A DNA stretch of 29,479 bases. Source: a virus. Position numbers and translations under genes: made by a program. Below, piece after piece: positions 7,017 through 14,824 of the stretch. Position 1 is the first letter of the stretch, and every line of letters starts with the position of its first letter. The DNA lies in the IMG/VR virus record IMGVR_UViG_3300022837_000059, positions 1-29,479 of that record; one strand, 5' to 3'. The notes beneath the pieces are model-generated. The model was given only the letters and a program-made list of their open reading frames with translations. It had not been told where the DNA came from and did no database searches.

Positions 7017-10000
7017 GTGGCTAATGATTTTAATCTTGAGGAATTTAAATTAAAAGACCCTGTGAGTAATATCAATGATGGACTTAAAGAGCCTGTCAAA
7101 GATAGTACTCCAGGGTTTTTTTCGTCTTTAAGAAATCCAATGGATCTTATGTTGGAAGAATCTATGCCAGCATCTCTATATCAATGGGCTACTGGAAACA
7201 CTAAAAAAAAACAAGCTCAAGAAGCATTAGATTATATAAATAATAATCCACAACAACAAGGTTCTAAAATCTATAAAGAAGCTGAACGTAAGTTAAATCG
7301 TTTTGGTTACTTGTTAGAAGATGGGCCAATGGATATAGACCTAAAAGAAATAGGTAATCTTGTTAAACAATCACCAGGTTTATTTGGTGCAGAAATGGTT
7401 AACATGATAGTTGCAGATCCTTATTTATTATTTATGCCTTTAGGTTGGGGTAGATTAGGTAGAGGTGTAGTTAACTCTCTACGAATGAAGTACTCTAAGA
7501 ATTTTCAAATTACTAAATCTGTATCAGAACTTGGTAAACTAAAAGCTGGTGCACAGATAAAAGAATTAGCAAGATTAAGAGAAGCAGCAAAGCTAGACAT
7601 GGCAGTAGGTAGTATAGCTACATTAGGTGTTCCCTTTGTGTTTTCTACATCATATCAATTAGGTGAAAAAGGTGAGTTCTCAGGTAAGAGAACAGCTGCA
7701 GAAACAACTATTGGAGCAACAGCAGGAGCTTTGTTCTCAGTAGGTTTTGCAGGAATGGGAGCTATGGTTGGTAAAAATACTGGACTATCTCCTGAAAGAG
7801 TACAGAAACAAATGATTAGTACTCTTAACAAATATAAAAATTCAGCAGAAGCAGTTGAGTACACAGAGAATGGTACGTTTAGAGCTGTCGATGATATATT
7901 AAAAGATATAAGAAAAGAAGTAGGAGTCGTAATAGATGAAGCTGAGTTTGCAAGAATAGCTAATGAAGTAACATCATTTGCAAGACCTACAGTAGAGAGT
8001 GCTAAAGACATAGCAAAAAATACATTATTTAAAGCAGCATCTATTGGTGGTGTTGTAGGTACTGCACAATTTTTAACATCAGATGATGAAAAACTTATAG
8101 CAACAGCTAAAGGATTTGCAGGTGGTGTTGGTATTTATGCAGCAGCCAAAGCAGCAACAGCATACTTTGGAAGAAGTGGGGCAGCATTTAATAAAGCACA
8201 AACTGAAGTAGAGTCTGCATTAGATGCAGCATCTTACAGTACTATAAAGTATAACTCATATGCACAAGAGTTAGCTAACAAAATTAAAGATACATTACCA
8301 GATCAATTAGATTCTAGACGTAAAGTATTTTATTATCTTACTGGTGCTACAGTAGATGAGAACTTTAGATTTAATAAGAATGTTAAAGCCTTTGATAAAG
8401 GTTTATTATCTGATGCTGAACTTAAAGCAGCAAATGATATTTCTAAAATATTTAATGAGTTCTATGAGATCTTCAATAAGCAAGGTGCTGGTATAGTTAA
8501 ATATAAGAAATCTAATTACTTACCTTTACTTTGGGAAGGATATAAAAGTAAAACAGGAGAACTGTTTAGCTTTACTAATAAGTTTGAAACAGCAATTACT
8601 GGTGATAATCCTAGTTTTAGATTTAATAGATCAAGAGTATTTGAAGATATTAACCAAGGTTTAAGAATAGGTTATAAGATTAGACCAGGAATGGATGATC
8701 CTGCAGAGTTAATGAGACTGTATTTGCAGTCAGCTGGTAAAGCATTAAGTACTCAGCAAGTATTAAACTTTTTAGAAACTAATTACATTGGTAGTGGTAA
8801 GAATATACTTACTAAACCTTTCCTTGCTAGAACAAGAAAACAAATAGCTTTTATAGATCCACAAGAAAGAATTAACTATAGTGAATTTAATCACCCATAT
8901 TTTCAAGGTGAAAAAGGATTTACTCCATTAATACATAAAGGTATTGAACCTGCTGTAAGAATGGTATTTGATGCTACAAATGAACAACAGTTAATGTCTG
9001 CATTGTTTACTACTAACATGATGATGAAAAGACTAGCAGTAGGATTCTCATTCTTTCATGCTGGTGCATTAGTAGAAAGTCTTTGGTTTGCAGGAGCTAA
9101 AATGAAAACTATAGGTAAGTTTTTAAGTCCTAAAACTAAACCAGAAGTATTAAAACAATTACAGGATCCAGGATATTATCTTACAGATTATCCTCATGCT
9201 ATTAAACAATTACAACAACAAGGTTTTAAAGACGTTGTAAGATTTGGTCAAGGTAGTGGTTTAAATATATCAATGCCTGAAGATATTGGTTATGATAGAT
9301 TCTACCAAAACATTAGAGGTGTAGATACATTTCTTAAAAGACATTTTGGTATAAGTGCTAATGGAAATATTGAAAAAACATTTAAGTTCTTTGATAGAAT
9401 TACTTGGGATAGAATATTTACTTCTGCTAAACTACATACGTTTCTTACATCTTTAAACAAAGGTACTAACGCTATTAAGCCTGGTGACACTCAGGCAGAA
9501 ATATATAAGAAAGCTCGTAGAGCAGCACAGTTTACTAATGATGCATATGGTGGACAAAATTGGGCACAAGTTACTCAAAGAATAGAAAATAACTTTGTTA
9601 AAAAATTAGCTCAAACTACATTAAATCCAGGATCTAGAGGATATATGCAATTGCTTATGTTTGCTCCAGACTGGACAATATCTAATGTAAGAATTATAGC
9701 TAAGTCATTACCAGGTTTTGAAAGCGATCCTAAGACAAGAAGATTATATCAATATTATTTTGCTAGAGCTGCACTTACTTATGCAATAGCAGGATCTACT
9801 TTAAACCATATATTTTCAGGACATGGTATATTAGAGAACACAGATCCAACAAGAATTGATTTAGGAAATGGTGAAGTATTAACTTTTTCTAAACAACTAA
9901 TGGAACCTTTTCATTGGATAACAGCACCACAGTCTACTGGTCTTAAAAAGATTGGTTCATTACCTAGAACAGTTATAGAAGTCTTAACTAATAAAGATTA

Positions 10001-10292
10001 CTTAACTACTAAGTATAGTCCAAATATGACTAGACAAGATGATAGTGCTATTGAAAAAGGTTTAACAATTGGTGGTCATGTTGGTAAAAGGTTTTTACCT
10101 ATTTGGTTACAACAAGCTTCAGCTTCAGTAGAAAAAGGTTTGCTTCAACAAGGTCTATCTTTAGACTTAGCTGCAGACACTTCTGTTGATTTTGTACTAG
10201 GGCAATTAGGTCACCCTAGATATAAAGGGCCTAGATATACACAATACAAAACGAAAGGGTTAGTAAGGTCTCCTTACGAAACATTATTTTAA
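7017..10292 (+). CDS. Large internal virion / DNA-ejection protein (1091 aa)
   Basis: Starts with GTG at 7017, 2 nt after the preceding stop, with GGGGA upstream. It is by far the largest protein here. It has several hydrophobic or small-residue segments: about residues 122-145 (LFGAEMVNMIVADPYLLFMP), 200-250 (with TTIGATAGALFSVGFAGMGA), 340-385 (GGVGIYAAAKAATAYFG) and 650-695. Between them are long polar helical tracts. Around 878-892 it has the motif MFAPDWTISNVRI, which I recall from very large phage virion or polyvalent proteins. Size, membrane-compatible helices and position after small Gly-rich proteins fit the ejection proteins that cross the envelope with the DNA. I see no transglycosylase E-S-x-x motif, so no enzymatic activity is assigned. 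Confidence 0.6.
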   Translation: MANDFNLEEFKLKDPVSNINDGLKEPVKDSTPGFFSSLRNPMDLMLEESMPASLYQWATGNTKKKQAQEALDYINNNPQQQGSKIYKEAERKLNRFGYLLEDGPMDIDLKEIGNLVKQSPGLFGAEMVNMIVADPYLLFMPLGWGRLGRGVVNSLRMKYSKNFQITKSVSELGKLKAGAQIKELARLREAAKLDMAVGSIATLGVPFVFSTSYQLGEKGEFSGKRTAAETTIGATAGALFSVGFAGMGAMVGKNTGLSPERVQKQMISTLNKYKNSAEAVEYTENGTFRAVDDILKDIRKEVGVVIDEAEFARIANEVTSFARPTVESAKDIAKNTLFKAASIGGVVGTAQFLTSDDEKLIATAKGFAGGVGIYAAAKAATAYFGRSGAAFNKAQTEVESALDAASYSTIKYNSYAQELANKIKDTLPDQLDSRRKVFYYLTGATVDENFRFNKNVKAFDKGLLSDAELKAANDISKIFNEFYEIFNKQGAGIVKYKKSNYLPLLWEGYKSKTGELFSFTNKFETAITGDNPSFRFNRSRVFEDINQGLRIGYKIRPGMDDPAELMRLYLQSAGKALSTQQVLNFLETNYIGSGKNILTKPFLARTRKQIAFIDPQERINYSEFNHPYFQGEKGFTPLIHKGIEPAVRMVFDATNEQQLMSALFTTNMMMKRLAVGFSFFHAGALVESLWFAGAKMKTIGKFLSPKTKPEVLKQLQDPGYYLTDYPHAIKQLQQQGFKDVVRFGQGSGLNISMPEDIGYDRFYQNIRGVDTFLKRHFGISANGNIEKTFKFFDRITWDRIFTSAKLHTFLTSLNKGTNAIKPGDTQAEIYKKARRAAQFTNDAYGGQNWAQVTQRIENNFVKKLAQTTLNPGSRGYMQLLMFAPDWTISNVRIIAKSLPGFESDPKTRRLYQYYFARAALTYAIAGSTLNHIFSGHGILENTDPTRIDLGNGEVLTFSKQLMEPFHWITAPQSTGLKKIGSLPRTVIEVLTNKDYLTTKYSPNMTRQDDSAIEKGLTIGGHVGKRFLPIWLQQASASVEKGLLQQGLSLDLAADTSVDFVLGQLGHPRYKGPRYTQYKTKGLVRSPYETLF

Positions 10293-10550: not shown

Positions 10551-11255
10551 ATGCTTCGCAAATCAATACTTGTTATAAGTGATCAACACGCACCATATCA
10601 TCATATAGATACTCTTGACTTTTTAAAAGCTATTAAGTTAAAGTATAAACCTGACTGTGTAGTTAACATAGGTGATGAAATGGATTGGCACTCAATATCA
10701 TTCCACGATTCACATCCTGGTTTATATTCACCAAGTCATGAGCTGGTAGTAGCTAGAAAATTTCTTCAAGATTTAGAAAAGTTATTTCCTAAGCAACATA
10801 TTATGGACTCTAATCATGGTAGTTTAGTTTTTAGAAAAGCTACTAAATATGGGTTACCTCATGAAATCTTTAAGTCATATAATGATATGCTTGGAGTTGG
10901 TAAAGGTTGGACATGGCACGATGATTTGATTATCAAAGCATCTAATGGTCAAAATATTTACTTCTGTCATGGTAAGTTTAAAGACGTACTTAAAGTTGCA
11001 CAACAATATGGAATGTGTACTGTCCAAGGACACTATCACACTTCATTCAAAATAGATTATTGGAGTAATCCAAATGAACTACTTTGGGGTATGCAAGTTG
11101 GATGTTTAATTAATATGAAAAGTTTAGCTTTTGAATATAATAAATTACAGAAGTCTAGACCAGTAATAGGAACAGGAGTTATCATTGATGGATTACCAAT
11201 ATTAATCCCAATGGTTTTAGATAAAAATGGTAGATGGAATAGAAAAATTACCTAG
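10551..11255 (+). CDS. Calcineurin-like metallophosphoesterase
   Basis: 234 residues with a full set of two-metal phosphoesterase motifs: D11-x-H13 in SDQHAP, G41-D42 in NIGDEMD, N88-H89 in SNHG, H140 in FCHGKF, and G160-H161-x-H163 in GHYH. These residues bind the two metal ions and the phosphate in this superfamily. No signal peptide. Phage members of this type are usually called calcineurin-like phosphoesterases, and their substrate (nucleotide, DNA end or phosphoprotein) is not settled by sequence. Its last 29 nt overlap the start of the lysozyme-like gene, so the two are probably co-translated. Confidence 0.85.
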   Translation: MLRKSILVISDQHAPYHHIDTLDFLKAIKLKYKPDCVVNIGDEMDWHSISFHDSHPGLYSPSHELVVARKFLQDLEKLFPKQHIMDSNHGSLVFRKATKYGLPHEIFKSYNDMLGVGKGWTWHDDLIIKASNGQNIYFCHGKFKDVLKVAQQYGMCTVQGHYHTSFKIDYWSNPNELLWGMQVGCLINMKSLAFEYNKLQKSRPVIGTGVIIDGLPILIPMVLDKNGRWNRKIT

Positions 11256-11676
11256 AGGAATTAGAAACAAAAACCCAGGCAATATAAAGCTTGGTACTGA
11301 TTGGGATGGACTGGCAGATGAACAATCTGATCCAGTTTTTTGTGTATTTAAAGAGTCTGTTTGGGGCATTAGAGCTCTAGTTAGAATACTTTTGGTATAC
11401 AGGTTTCATCATAAAAGATTTACAGTAGAGGACATCATTGAAAGATGGGCTCCACCAAGTGAGAATGACACAGATGCTTACATAGTATTTGTTTGCAAGA
11501 AACTTGGGGTAAATCCTCAAGACAAATTAGATAATAGTATAGAAGATTATTTACCATTAGTTAAAGCAATTATACAAATGGAAAATGGTATGCAGCCATA
11601 CGATGATGAGCTGTTAGTAGAAGGTATGTATAAAGCATGGGACGGATTCCCAACAGGTTCTAACAAGGTATATTAA
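11227..11676 (+). CDS. Lysozyme-like / 'structural protein P5'-type virion or lysis protein
   Basis: 149 residues. The N-terminus has LPRGIRNKNPGNIKLG, then W-G-I-R-A-L-V-R-I-L-L-V-Y (about 55-67) and ERWAPPSENDTDAYIVFVCK (about 78-97). This set (R-G-I-R-N-x-N-P-G-N-I; G-I-R-A; W-A-P-P-x-E-N-D-T) is the signature of a widespread phage family annotated 'structural protein P5' or lysozyme-like, thought to act on peptidoglycan. The start at 11227 lies inside the phosphoesterase gene and puts PRGIRN at residue 9, as usual. No signal peptide, so release would need the holin-like proteins nearby. The enzyme role is inferred from the family. Confidence 0.7.
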   Translation: MVDGIEKLPRGIRNKNPGNIKLGTDWDGLADEQSDPVFCVFKESVWGIRALVRILLVYRFHHKRFTVEDIIERWAPPSENDTDAYIVFVCKKLGVNPQDKLDNSIEDYLPLVKAIIQMENGMQPYDDELLVEGMYKAWDGFPTGSNKVY

Positions 11677-11791: not shown

Positions 11792-12172
11792 ATGTGGTTA
11801 AATTTATTATCCATGGGCATTAAGACTGGTGCACATTTATATAAGAACAAACAAACAACAAAACAATTAATGTCAGATGCTCGTATGAGACACGCTGAGA
11901 AAATGAGTACTGGTGAAATTGAATATAAAGCGAAAATTATTGAGAGCAATGATCAAGGTTACAAGGATGAGTTTGTCCTTATTCTTATATCTATGCCTAT
12001 CTGTTTATTGGCTTGGTCTATCTTTTCTGACGATCCAGAGATTCATACTAAATTAACATTATTTTTTGATTACTTTAATCAGCTACCATACTGGTATCAA
12101 GCTATCTTTATAGGTGTCGTAAGTGCTATCTATGGTTTAAAAGGTGCTGACATTATGCGTAAGCCAAAATGA
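11792..12172 (+). CDS. Holin-like protein
   Basis: 126 residues. A cytoplasmic N-terminal half (MRHAEKMSTGEIEYKAKIIESN) leads into a first membrane span preceded by the typical Asp-Glu (KDEFVLILISMPICLLAWSIF), then an acidic loop, and a second span after a PYWYQ motif (PYWYQAIFIGVVSAIYGL). This layout, 'W/Y..DE(F/Y)..ll.s.P' followed by 'lP.WY...i..i....yGl', is the pattern of a holin family common in marine podoviruses. GGGAGATTAAG gives a good ribosome site. It overlaps the zinc-ribbon gene by 4 nt (ATGA). Confidence 0.7.
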   Translation: MWLNLLSMGIKTGAHLYKNKQTTKQLMSDARMRHAEKMSTGEIEYKAKIIESNDQGYKDEFVLILISMPICLLAWSIFSDDPEIHTKLTLFFDYFNQLPYWYQAIFIGVVSAIYGLKGADIMRKPK

Positions 12173-12336
12173 AGAAGGTTGAAGGATATTGCATAGGGTG
12201 TAATAAAGAAATTATACACACTCAATCTTTTATTACTTTACCAAATAAAAAAATCTTATGTCCTAAATGTTACCAGAGCTCAGGAGCTCAGCTACCTTTT
12301 TGGGATAGAAACAACAAACCAACATTCAATAAATGA
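12169..12336 (+). CDS. 55-aa zinc-ribbon microprotein
   Basis: Coupled to the holin-like gene by ATGA. The product has C8-x-x-C11 (GYCIGCNKE) and C31-x-x-C34 (ILCPKCYQ), spaced about 20 residues apart, as in a small zinc ribbon, followed by a short tail FWDRNNKPTFNK. Its stop overlaps the next start by 4 nt. No enzymatic motif is seen. DNA- or protein-binding is the usual role of such a fold; the target is unknown. Confidence 0.6.
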   Translation: MKKVEGYCIGCNKEIIHTQSFITLPNKKILCPKCYQSSGAQLPFWDRNNKPTFNK

Positions 12337-12944
12337 GAATATTAATAATACTATTTTGTTTAATTACTACGTATGCTTTAGGAGACTCTACACAAACAAA
12401 TGTGAGTGGCTCAAATACAGCTATTGAAGGTGGATATACATCTTCTGCTACTACTAATTATGCAACAGGAAGTTCATCAAACTCTACTACAAATAGTACA
12501 TCAAATTCTAATATAAAATCAGCACCACCAACTGCTAATTCACCATCATTTTCAGCTGGATCACAAGACGTTTGTGCAACTGGAATGAGTGCTGGAGTTC
12601 AGACATTTGGTTTTGGAGTATCTGGTGGTAAAACTAATAGAGATATGAACTGTGAAAGAATTAAGTTAGCTAAAGTTTTATATGACTTTGGAATGAAAGT
12701 TGGAAGTGTGGCTTTATTGTGTCAAGACGAGAGAGTCTTTGAAGCTATGATTAATGCTGGAACACCTTGTCCAATAGATGGCAAGATAGGTAAAGACGCT
12801 ATGGATATTTGGATTAAATACGATTTTGAAAGACCAGATTATAAAACATATGTTAAACGTATGGAGAAAAGAGAAGTAATAGATAAGTCTATTCAAACAG
12901 AAGTATTAAAAACTATAGAAACTCAACCAATACATAATGAGTAG
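12333..12944 (+). CDS. Exported Ser/Thr/Asn-rich protein with conserved Cys-containing C-terminal domain
   Basis: 203 residues. It begins with a signal peptide (MRILIILFCLITTYALG, probable cleavage near ALG-DS). A low-complexity Ser/Thr/Asn linker spans about 20-70. The C-terminal domain (about 75-190) has D-V-C-A-T-G, N-R-D-M-N-C-E-R-I-K-L-A, a G-M-K-V-G-S-V-A-L-L-C-Q-D-E-R-V-F stretch and N-A-G-T-P-C-P-I-D-G-K-I-G. I recall this Cys-bearing domain from other marine phages, where its role is not known. Four cysteines in an exported protein could form disulphides in the periplasm. It lies in an ATGA-coupled chain with its neighbours. Confidence 0.6.
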   Translation: MRILIILFCLITTYALGDSTQTNVSGSNTAIEGGYTSSATTNYATGSSSNSTTNSTSNSNIKSAPPTANSPSFSAGSQDVCATGMSAGVQTFGFGVSGGKTNRDMNCERIKLAKVLYDFGMKVGSVALLCQDERVFEAMINAGTPCPIDGKIGKDAMDIWIKYDFERPDYKTYVKRMEKREVIDKSIQTEVLKTIETQPIHNE

Positions 12945-13119
12945 AAAAACTAATACAATGTTAATAGGTTTGTTAGGTACAATACTTATGGGATTAGCTA
13001 CTTGGACACTTATAACATTAATAGAACTACAACTTTTAGTAACAATGATTCAACAAGATTTATTTAGTATTGATAAACAATTTGGGAGAGTCTACAGTTT
13101 TATAGATTCAGTTAGATAA
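12937..13119 (+). CDS. 60-aa membrane protein
   Basis: MSRKTNTMLIGLLGTILMGL begins a basic N-terminus and one or two closely spaced hydrophobic helices (about residues 8-36), followed by a short polar tail IDKQFGRVYSFIDSVR. The start overlaps the stop of the exported protein upstream; TAA and the next ATG overlap at 13119-13120. Topology suggests an inner-membrane anchor with an outward tail, as expected for a spanin or holin accessory, but no family is recognised. Confidence 0.5.
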   Translation: MSRKTNTMLIGLLGTILMGLATWTLITLIELQLLVTMIQQDLFSIDKQFGRVYSFIDSVR

Positions 13120-13227
13120 ATGAAACATTTAATATTATTTATATATCATTACTCAAGTAAGTTAAGTTCTTGGTCTTGGCAAAAATTATACAAAAATAGA
13201 AAAACAGGTTTAGGTTATAAAAAATGA
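13120..13227 (+). CDS. 35-aa microprotein
   Basis: ATG at 13120 continues the overlapping chain. The product MKHLILFIYHYSSKLSSWSW is followed by a basic tail QKLYKNRKTGLGYKK. It has a short hydrophobic N-terminus and is too short for a confident membrane call. It ends 13227, overlapping the next start by 4 nt (ATGA at 13224). The unbroken ATGA/1-nt overlap chain is the main reason for listing it. Confidence 0.35.
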   Translation: MKHLILFIYHYSSKLSSWSWQKLYKNRKTGLGYKK

Positions 13228-13325
13228 TTTGGCTATTAGCAATAGTAATAGGAGGATGTTATGCGATACACAGCGTTAATAAGTTTGCTGATTATATTAA
13301 TCCATACAACTTCCATAAAAAGTGA
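13224..13325 (+). CDS. 33-aa microprotein with lipobox-like IGGC, overlapping the next gene
   Basis: ATG at 13224; MIWLLAIVIGGCYAIHSVNK then FADYINPYNFHKK, stop 13325. The first 11 residues are hydrophobic and end in V-I-G-G-C, which resembles a short lipoprotein cleavage site, though there is no basic n-region and the cysteine is unusually early. It overlaps the first 65 nt of the 432-aa secreted protein in another frame and carries that gene's strong AGGAGG ribosome site. The arrangement recalls overlapping spanin pairs; this is inference. Confidence 0.35.
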   Translation: MIWLLAIVIGGCYAIHSVNKFADYINPYNFHKK

Positions 13326-14559
13326 AGTTATTACAACAAATAATTTACTTGATAAAAACTTTGATAATGGATCTTGGACAGGAACTGCCGATGGTAGGCA
13401 TGGTTCTAATGTCATTGCTTCTGAGCATGATACTTATATCCAATCTGATGATATAAGTTTAAAGAATGATGCAAATTTAACAGAATTACAAATACAAAAT
13501 GGTTATACAACTAATCATGAATTTGAATATTTGCATTGGAATACATATGATTCTAGTGTTAAATCTACAGTAACTATAACAGGAGCAAATGGTGAAACAA
13601 CAACACAGATTAGGAATTATAATAGTAGTAGCTGTGGCAGTGTTAACTGTGGTGATTACGTCACTGGCAGTGATACTTATACTGTACTTTCAAGTTTACA
13701 AACCGACTATGATTTATCAGTTCGATATGATTTTACAGATTCATCAAATGCTACAGAGAATCATTATGGGGTCGATGTCAGGGAACCTTCCCTCACTGTA
13801 ACATACGAGTCAGATCCTTTTGTTTTAAATGAAGATATTAGAGATGAGATAAAAAATGTGTTGGAAGAATTTAAACCAGAAAAAGAATTTATAGTTAAAG
13901 AAGAATTTAAGTTTGTAGAAATTAAAACTGAACCTAAACCAATGGAAGAAACAAAGGTTATAGAGCAATATAAAACTGAACCTAAAATAGAGAAAGTTTA
14001 TAATGAAAAACCTAAAGAAGAAATTAAATTAGAAACTAAAGTTGCTGATAAAATTACTGAAGAATACAAAAAAGAAGTATCTACAGAAGTTACTGAACAG
14101 GTATCAGATAATGCTAAGAAAAAAGTAATAAAAGAAGATACAGATAAGAATGATTCTAAAAAGGTAGTTAAGAAAGATTCTAAAGAAGAAGTTAAAACTA
14201 AAGTAAGCTCTACAAAGACTAAGACAAGTAAACCAAAATTAGATGTAATAATGGCTAAAGTAGACGCACAAGTTAAAGACGCATCTAAAAATTTAAACAT
14301 TAAAAACATTATTAAATTAGATGCTATGCAGAAAGATTCAGTATCATTAGTAGAGTATAACAATACAGAGTTCTATAAACCTAAAGATATATATTTAGAC
14401 CAAATAGCTATATTTGATAATAGATCTATTTATAAAAACTTTGATTTAGTAAAATACAGAAACAACGATATTATAGGAATTAAGAATAGAACATTAGAAG
14501 AACTAAACATAAACAAACAAAGAATATTAATAGAACTTAAGGAACTTAAGAATGAATAA
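13261..14559 (+). CDS. Secreted protein: lectin-like N-terminal domain plus TolA-like Lys/Glu stalk
   Basis: 432 residues, with AGGAGG 5 nt before the ATG. Residues 1-20 form a signal peptide (MRYTALISLLIILIHTTSIK). Residues ~22-195 are a beta-rich domain (NLLDKNFDNGSWTGTADG, ELQIQNGYTTNHEFEYLHW, a GANGETTTQI turn, a Cys pair CGSVNC at 125-130, then NHYGVDVREPSLTVTYES) resembling jellyroll or carbohydrate-binding domains. Residues ~195-330 are a Lys/Glu/Val-rich helical stalk with KTEPK and KKVxK repeats, like TolA-type periplasm-spanning segments. The C-terminal ~100 residues are again mixed and end IELKELKNE. I recall the N-terminal domain from other marine phages. It likely acts in the periplasm or at the envelope; function unknown. 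Confidence 0.6.
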   Translation: MRYTALISLLIILIHTTSIKSEVITTNNLLDKNFDNGSWTGTADGRHGSNVIASEHDTYIQSDDISLKNDANLTELQIQNGYTTNHEFEYLHWNTYDSSVKSTVTITGANGETTTQIRNYNSSSCGSVNCGDYVTGSDTYTVLSSLQTDYDLSVRYDFTDSSNATENHYGVDVREPSLTVTYESDPFVLNEDIRDEIKNVLEEFKPEKEFIVKEEFKFVEIKTEPKPMEETKVIEQYKTEPKIEKVYNEKPKEEIKLETKVADKITEEYKKEVSTEVTEQVSDNAKKKVIKEDTDKNDSKKVVKKDSKEEVKTKVSSTKTKTSKPKLDVIMAKVDAQVKDASKNLNIKNIIKLDAMQKDSVSLVEYNNTEFYKPKDIYLDQIAIFDNRSIYKNFDLVKYRNNDIIGIKNRTLEELNINKQRILIELKELKNE

Positions 14560-14824
14560 ATTAAAAAGTAACATTGGTGTAATTATGGTAATACTAGGAC
14601 TGATTGGTTCTACAGGTACATTTTACTCTAAGTTTGCTACAATGGAATTAAAGATAGAACAGTTGTCTAATGCTACTGCACCAGATTTAACTGGTATAGA
14701 AACTAATGGTTTTGCAGTATTAGATTTAGATAAAAATATCTCTATTCTAGAAAAAGAAATAGAATTGCTGAAAGTACAATTGCAAGAACTAAAAATAAAC
14801 TCATCGAATCCATTATCTCAATAG
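14552..14824 (+). CDS. Membrane-anchored coiled-coil protein (inner-membrane spanin-like)
   Basis: 90 residues. The basic N-terminus and one transmembrane helix (NIGVIMVILGLIGSTGTFYS) are followed by an outward-facing region ending in a heptad-patterned helix (ISILEKEIELLKVQLQELKI). One N-terminal membrane anchor plus a periplasmic coiled coil is the layout of Rz-type i-spanins. It overlaps the preceding gene by ATGA and is the last gene of the plus-strand run. Its stop overlaps the end of the oppositely oriented DUF3310-like gene by 7 nt. Spanin function is inferred from topology and place only. Confidence 0.45.
   Translation: MNKLKSNIGVIMVILGLIGSTGTFYSKFATMELKIEQLSNATAPDLTGIETNGFAVLDLDKNISILEKEIELLKVQLQELKINSSNPLSQ

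Follow-up and report, generated by a model that had tools for sequence, protein, structure and literature searches.

An exported, membrane-associated gene module of Pelagibacter phages with an exchangeable jelly-roll head and a possible spanin-like role

We analysed the IMG/VR virus record IMGVR_UViG_3300022837_000059 (29.5 kb, 32% GC, possibly incomplete; hereafter the window) and in it a cassette of six packed open reading frames (ORFs) on the plus strand at positions 12333-14824, downstream of an endolysin and a holin-like gene. The cassette is confirmed as real, with all six ORFs conserved past near-identical copies. Its core consists of two exported proteins, A (203 aa, 12333-12944) and B (432 aa, 13261-14559), and of C (90 aa, 14552-14824), an inner-membrane-anchored coiled coil. 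We tentatively favour, at somewhat less than an even chance, a late envelope module that crosses the periplasm and does the job of a spanin, the breach of the outer membrane, with an exchangeable head for glycan recognition. The nearest named relatives of the region are Pelagibacter (SAR11) phages, and the host assignment is based on these nearest isolates. SAR11 are the commonest bacteria in the ocean, and their phages carry in this module conserved exported proteins without an assigned function. Searches of Pfam, PHROGs and NCBIfam gave no function for A, B or C, a defence library gave no notable match, and the module turned up in none of our literature searches.

Conservation of the cassette

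The first-pass annotation, made from the DNA letters alone, had proposed an exported and membrane-associated cassette after the holin, with two signal peptides, two membrane anchors and two microproteins. All six ORFs are where it had placed them and the general picture is supported. Hydropathy, by which we called signal peptides, agrees on the signal peptides of A and B and on a single anchor each in C and in a 60-aa protein; conservation in divergent loci was seen for both of the microproteins, which is stronger than had been claimed. A strong N-terminal hydrophobic segment was found in 94% of A homologues, 92% of B homologues and 92% of C homologues, against 12.5% of other genes (n=882). 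The genes are tightly interlocked, with overlaps of 8 nucleotides (nt) between A and the 60-aa ORF and between B and C, 4 nt between the 35-aa and 33-aa microprotein ORFs, and 65 nt between the 33-aa ORF and the start of B; the 60-aa and 35-aa ORFs abut.

Of 80 IMG/VR loci, nearly all keep the order A-B-C, and relatives in the same order occur in the cultured phages HTVC023P, HTVC202P, HTVC033P, Baldr and Mosig, the last a T4-like member of the Kyanoviridae, as well as in MedDCM-S28-C10. The neighbourhood search suggested at first pass thus shows the Cys-containing A together with B across marine phages. Among the loci of this first set that extend for 4 kb or more past A, C was present in 55/55 and B in 50/55; B was missing from three loci of Roseobacter type, from HTVC115P and from one freshwater-spring phage. 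The loci were gathered via A, so the counts of A with C are silent on how often C or B stands alone; moreover, all locus counts ignore shared ancestry, and a few isolate loci belong to both this set and the Roseobacter-type set described below. Relatives of A are found on at least 599 IMG/VR contigs, whereby several hundred contigs are concerned whichever of the functional readings applies. A scan of contigs from metagenome-assembled genomes returned nine contigs only and no clear host prophage.

The six ORFs could also be unrelated small envelope genes that gathered at a permissive spot and have no joint function. The coming and going of optional genes between A and B (the 60-aa protein, C2, c9 and small lipoproteins) would fit this. 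However, A is accompanied by C in every scorable locus of both sets (55/55 and 69/69), in several contexts and phage types, the B/C overlap of 8 nt is identical in 32 loci, and divergence is correlated between A and Bc (r=0.81) and between A and C (r=0.53), values in which the kinship of the phages is ignored. We regard such a chance gathering as distinctly improbable.

Protein B and its exchangeable head

B begins with a signal peptide that has a signal-peptidase-like site, followed by a head, a stalk and, over about residues 327-432, a helical C-terminal part that is conserved; no further hydrophobic segment was found after the signal peptide. The head, about residues 21-185, was predicted by AlphaFold2 as a jelly roll, with a predicted local distance difference test (pLDDT) of 90-96 for most of it. 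The top folds found by Foldseek in PDB were the sugar-binding domains of Fbs1/Fbs2, CBM22 and CBM16 (E 2e-6 to 1e-4; template-modelling score normalised to target 0.43-0.61). With CBM22/CBM16 and Fbs domains the head shares the jelly-roll fold (Foldseek E about 1e-5), but the identity is 7-15% and no enzyme is attached, so the likeness is one of fold only. The lectin-like domain postulated at first pass is therefore borne out by structure prediction, and on the model we are confident that the head is a jelly roll of carbohydrate-binding type, lectin-like at the level of fold. Sequence profile searches of PDB with A, B and C gave nothing significant, CBM22 appearing for B only at E=1.6. The stalk had been described as TolA-like, which did not hold: it is rich in Pro, Lys and Glu, is modelled as disordered with low confidence, and has a make-up that we take to be nearer TonB than the helical stalk of TolA.

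The head varies independently of the rest of the protein. In the loci L014 and L016, A is 85% identical, the signal-peptide region of B 87%, and the stalk, tail and C 92.5% over 951 nt, whereas similarity between the heads is undetectable in DNA and the protein identity is about 26-37%. The reverse is seen between the window and L058, with heads 76-93% identical and most of the stalk only 24-35%. Across 54 loci there were 32 pairs with tail identity above 60% and head identity below 28%, and 23 reverse pairs, the pairs not being independent. As judged from these alignments, the head is exchanged as one unit, bounded by the signal peptide on one side and the stalk on the other. Receptor-binding tips show this pattern; in B it occurs on a protein that is exported.

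Receptor-binding proteins typically swap domains in this way, many proteins of the tail and neck are similar to jelly-roll heads, and B matches phrog_2636, annotated as 'tail fiber'; B might accordingly be a fibre, spike or decoration protein of the virion. On inspection the phrog_2636 match is confined to the low-complexity stalk (214-357), the fold matches are to generic jelly rolls, and we rejected tail fibre as an annotation. A tail-fibre domain without export, which the first-pass annotation had named as evidence against its proposal, was not found, the export signals of A and B being conserved at the frequencies given above. Moreover, among the proteins of the loci and of the window the head profile matched nothing besides B, and CRP-810 has a separate annotated tail fibre. 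We consider a place on the particle improbable.

Protein A

A consists of a signal peptide, a Ser/Thr/Asn-rich linker (SGSNTxIxGGYTS) and a helical domain. The cysteines at positions 81, 107, 130 and 146 are invariant in 55 sequences, and the protein matches phrog_20531 (function not assigned, E=1.5e-11). The model has modest confidence (pLDDT about 83 over 101-190) and its fold had no match in PDB. No lipobox was found in the window copies of A or B, nor in most of their homologues. In the SAR11-phage contigs L024, L026, L027, L028, L029 and L044, a lipoprotein of 53-56 aa (LSACSVGKKC...) ends near the start of A.

Curli genes occur in pelagiphages (PMC7029224, PMC9599517; on curli see also PMC9004378), and the repetitive Ser/Thr/Asn-rich segment of A raises the possibility that A and B build curli-like surface fibres for aggregation ('sibling capture'). 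Like the curli genes of the type VIII secretion system (T8SS), the module encodes exported phage proteins in SAR11 phages, but it lacks Csg homology, and the genes and their distribution are different. The curli assignment was rejected after A, B and C gave no match to CsgA, CsgB, CsgF or CsgG in Pfam, NCBIfam or PHROG. Furthermore, T8SS genes are reported absent from cultured phages of the HTVC023P type, yet HTVC023P carries A-B-C. Fibres of this kind appear highly improbable.

Protein C and the C2-c9 pair

From hydropathy and alignment, C has a single N-terminal membrane anchor, a coiled-coil-like tail and the end NPLSQ. All of 36 SAR11-phage sequences keep the residues NPL without change, and 11 sequences drawn from the SAR11 and Roseobacter types keep NP. 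The periplasmic part of many C homologues (e.g. L004 8233-8556) contains a His-rich stretch (HxHDFDHTHD), which is missing from the window copy and possibly binds metal.

Most pelagiphages have a pair of genes, C2 and c9, the first of which encodes a homologue of C (E=6e-8 to 5e-5 by profile). Of the 45 phage records that contain C2, 40 belong to Pelagibacter phages, and in several cases C2 adjoins a holin and is followed by c9, a small exported protein with two Cys. Examples near a holin or an M15 endolysin are L202 5010-5590, L203 5001-5631, L204 5001-5575 and L201 5651-6577. The pair resembles the module in this position, but it has neither A nor the head of B, and C2 ends in NGxxH where C ends in NPL. 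C2-c9 looks like an unannotated spanin-type pair. Neither C2 nor c9 was seen in the window.

The Roseobacter-phage version

A broader A profile yielded a second set of 80 loci of Roseobacter-phage type (CRP-207, CRP-810), with the order small lipoprotein (Lip)-A-X-C complete in 69/69 scorable loci. The gene of the small lipoprotein overlaps the start of A in 82/84 Roseobacter-type loci (e.g. L009 1725-1940, L010 5600-5860, L109 5834-6037), a lipobox is present in at least 62/82 cases, and profile comparison aligns the protein with a segment of 36 residues in A (E=2e-6, 89% probability). X was rejected as a homologue of B or C (hhalign probability <=0.3%). The profile match between Roseobacter C and SAR11-phage C is weak (19% probability, E=0.001); the two are alike in topology, position and the end NP[LMI], and we treat them as counterparts by position. 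The lipoprotein suggests that, where the B head is present, the head may stand in place of lipid anchoring. The C homologues of CRP-207 (L009 3292-3873) and CRP-810 (L010 7204-7626) overlap 'lysozyme' annotations, although they are membrane-anchored coiled coils.

Genomic context

The module was found in three placements: endolysin/holin-A-B-C (the window, HTVC033P, Mosig-like phages), DNA polymerase-PurM-A-(C2-c9)-B-C-M15 endolysin, and A-B-C-terminase (HTVC202P, Baldr). Lysis genes are neighbours in most cases. In Mosig, a match to GTA_holin_3TM lies directly before A, in the same position as the holin-like gene of the window, whose homologue adjoins an M15 endolysin in many pelagiphages. 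An M15 endolysin directly follows C in HTVC023P and several contigs, and a GH19 endolysin lies about 2 kb beyond the Roseobacter-phage module in 24 loci. Of the loci that extend 3 kb beyond the module in either direction, 23/31 had a holin or endolysin at most 3 kb away, a count that ignores shared ancestry and has no formal null. The slot itself can be refilled: HTVC023P has PurM-A-B-C-M15 where HTVC027P has PurM-gp14-C2-c9-M15, with 72-78% DNA identity in the flanks. Next to this endolysin, HTVC027P has an exported pair of smaller size in place of the module.

We found no recognisable Rz/Rz1 in the 29.5-kb window. A scan of the window for ORFs of 55-220 aa with an N-terminal anchor or signal peptide, and for lipoboxes, returned only the cassette and one out-of-frame ORF inside B. 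The cassette is the candidate for the spanin-type system of the window phage, if the phage has one; the record being possibly incomplete, a missing piece may lie outside it. About 13% of surveyed Gram-negative phages are without an identifiable spanin, and what substitutes for it has been called an open question (PMC6139136, PMC12819732).

A possible role in outer-membrane breach

Under the spanin-like reading, the module would be made late in phages that infect SAR11 or its marine alphaproteobacterial relatives and would act after holin and endolysin. C would be the i-spanin-like partner in the inner membrane and A a disulfide-bonded periplasmic adaptor, while B would span the periplasm, docking by its conserved C-terminal part to A or C and gripping with its head a glycan of the host's outer envelope. 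We infer that A, B and C form one complex. Once peptidoglycan is cut, the linked complex would join both membranes or tear the outer one, and heads would be exchanged when the envelope sugars of hosts differ. In Roseobacter phages, where the lipoprotein and the unrelated exported X replace B, the two could supply an outer-membrane anchor. Alternatively, the head could bind peptidoglycan or its fragments, which would not explain the swapping. If an outer-membrane breach is right, the last lysis step of SAR11 phages becomes testable.

We compared the module with spanins as defined in PMC6139136. By hydropathy and alignment, C has the topology of an i-spanin, a single N-terminal anchor and a periplasmic domain. 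With two-component spanins (lambda Rz/Rz1, T4 PseT.3/PseT.2) C also shares the coiled coil and a conserved C-terminus, and the module shares periplasmic Cys in the partner, overlapping genes and the usual neighbourhood of lysis or terminase genes; disulfides and gene overlaps are usual in these spanins (PMC6139136). The Roseobacter-phage version likewise includes a small lipoprotein. The differences are the three to four components, the exported partner in SAR11 phages that is not a lipoprotein, the large glycan-type head on a stalk and the lack of sequence homology. Regarding unimolecular spanins, B shares with T1 gp11 a beta-rich periplasmic domain, and a u-spanin has been predicted in marine alphaproteobacterial phages too (cobaviruses such as SIO1; PMC6775973), but B combines neither a lipobox nor a C-terminal membrane helix in one protein. 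The first-pass remark that B is too large for a usual spanin holds as an argument from length and loses force with B as one component of three.

Besides the uncorrected ancestry behind the lysis-gene count, several points weigh against the spanin-like reading. The SAR11-phage module has no lipoprotein component, the sole lipobox of the window being a non-conserved one in the 33-aa ORF, and homology to known spanins was not measurable, the best Rz-like PHROG match (E=0.076) coming from the coiled coil. Known spanins need no exchangeable glycan-type head. Several genomes hold both A-B-C and C2-c9, of which one would be superfluous if both were spanin-type systems. In HTVC202P and Baldr, the exceptions to the lysis neighbourhood, the module lies at least 9-18 kb from the lysis enzyme and beside the terminase; T4 spanin genes, too, lie apart from the T4 holin and endolysin (PMC6139136), and nearness is therefore not strictly required of spanins. 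Because the SAR11 version lacks an outer-membrane lipoprotein, we do not file the module as a spanin. On the tests run the module is neither a canonical spanin nor a tail fibre nor a curli system, and it may work like a spanin.

A bolder form of the spanin-like reading seems doubtful to us: that the coiled coil of C, the disulfide adaptor A and the lectin-headed stalk are a new machine for breaching the outer membrane, attached to the outer envelope through an exchangeable glycan-binding head in place of a lipid anchor, which would tune the final step of lysis to the surface sugars of the host strain.

The first-pass annotation had suspected a role beyond lysis, for which the exchangeable head, with its fit to recognition, and the genomes that keep the module far off or together with a second exported coiled-coil pair can be cited; the lysis context in most genomes speaks the other way. 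In its clearest form, B would bind the glycan used as phage receptor and, with A and C, block secondary adsorption (receptor masking, superinfection exclusion) or, as a decoy, stop the released progeny from adhering to envelope debris. A comparable case may be Llp of phage T5, a small exported lipoprotein that acts on the outer membrane and is encoded by a single gene. Masking would suit the precise swapping of a carbohydrate-binding-type head between signal peptide and stalk, the separability from lysis genes in some genomes, the coexistence of A-B-C with C2-c9 and the small Cys-containing lipoprotein of the Roseobacter type. However, the module usually stands beside lysis genes and not early genes, B has no obvious path across the outer membrane, and the obligate inner-membrane partner C would be superfluous. 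We hold masking, the main rival of the spanin-like reading, to be unlikely; were it true, it would be a widespread system of superinfection control.

Microproteins and the 60-aa protein

The 33-aa membrane microprotein (13224-13325, plus strand) shares part of its coding DNA, read in another frame, with the signal peptide of B. Its relatives align over the full length in 16 divergent loci with the pattern MIWL(hydrophobic)G..YA.Y.INKFADDINPYNF, and a GLNPYDF fragment is found even in Mosig. In the overlap, the ratio of nonsynonymous to synonymous differences (pN/pS, uncorrected proportions) was 0.50 in the 33-aa frame, 0.80 in the B frame and 0.73 in the third frame. The stronger constraint on the 33-aa frame than on the B frame suggests that the signal peptide of B seems to be shaped by the microprotein. 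We considered the 33-aa ORF as an Rz1-like lipoprotein and rejected it: its IGGC box coincides with the Shine-Dalgarno sequence of B and is missing from other copies.

The 35-aa microprotein (13120-13227, plus strand; SWSWQKLYKNRK) is cationic and Trp-rich, and its tblastn relatives in L017, L189, L031 and L042 are 66-91% identical. Its composition makes a membrane-active peptide possible, in likeness to disruptins, which are short peptides, cationic and amphipathic, with a disruptive effect on the outer membrane. The 60-aa single-pass membrane protein (12937-13119, plus strand) has a short amphipathic tail and belongs to a PHROG family of its own, phrog_33111 (function not assigned, E=3.6e-34), with 20 tblastn matches down to 47% identity, including Baldr and Lederberg.

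Neighbouring genes

The plus-strand series starts at 11227 with the endolysin (11227-11676; phrog_873, E=1.7e-50), followed by the holin-like membrane protein (11792-12172; phrog_2524, function not assigned) and a zinc-ribbon-like ORF of 55 aa (12169-12336), all on the plus strand. The last is present in close relatives and L031 only and is probably outside the module. Beyond C, convergent minus-strand genes begin at 14818. In the structural region of the window, a protein of 1091 aa (7017-10292) without a PHROG match at E 0.001 is a candidate tail protein.

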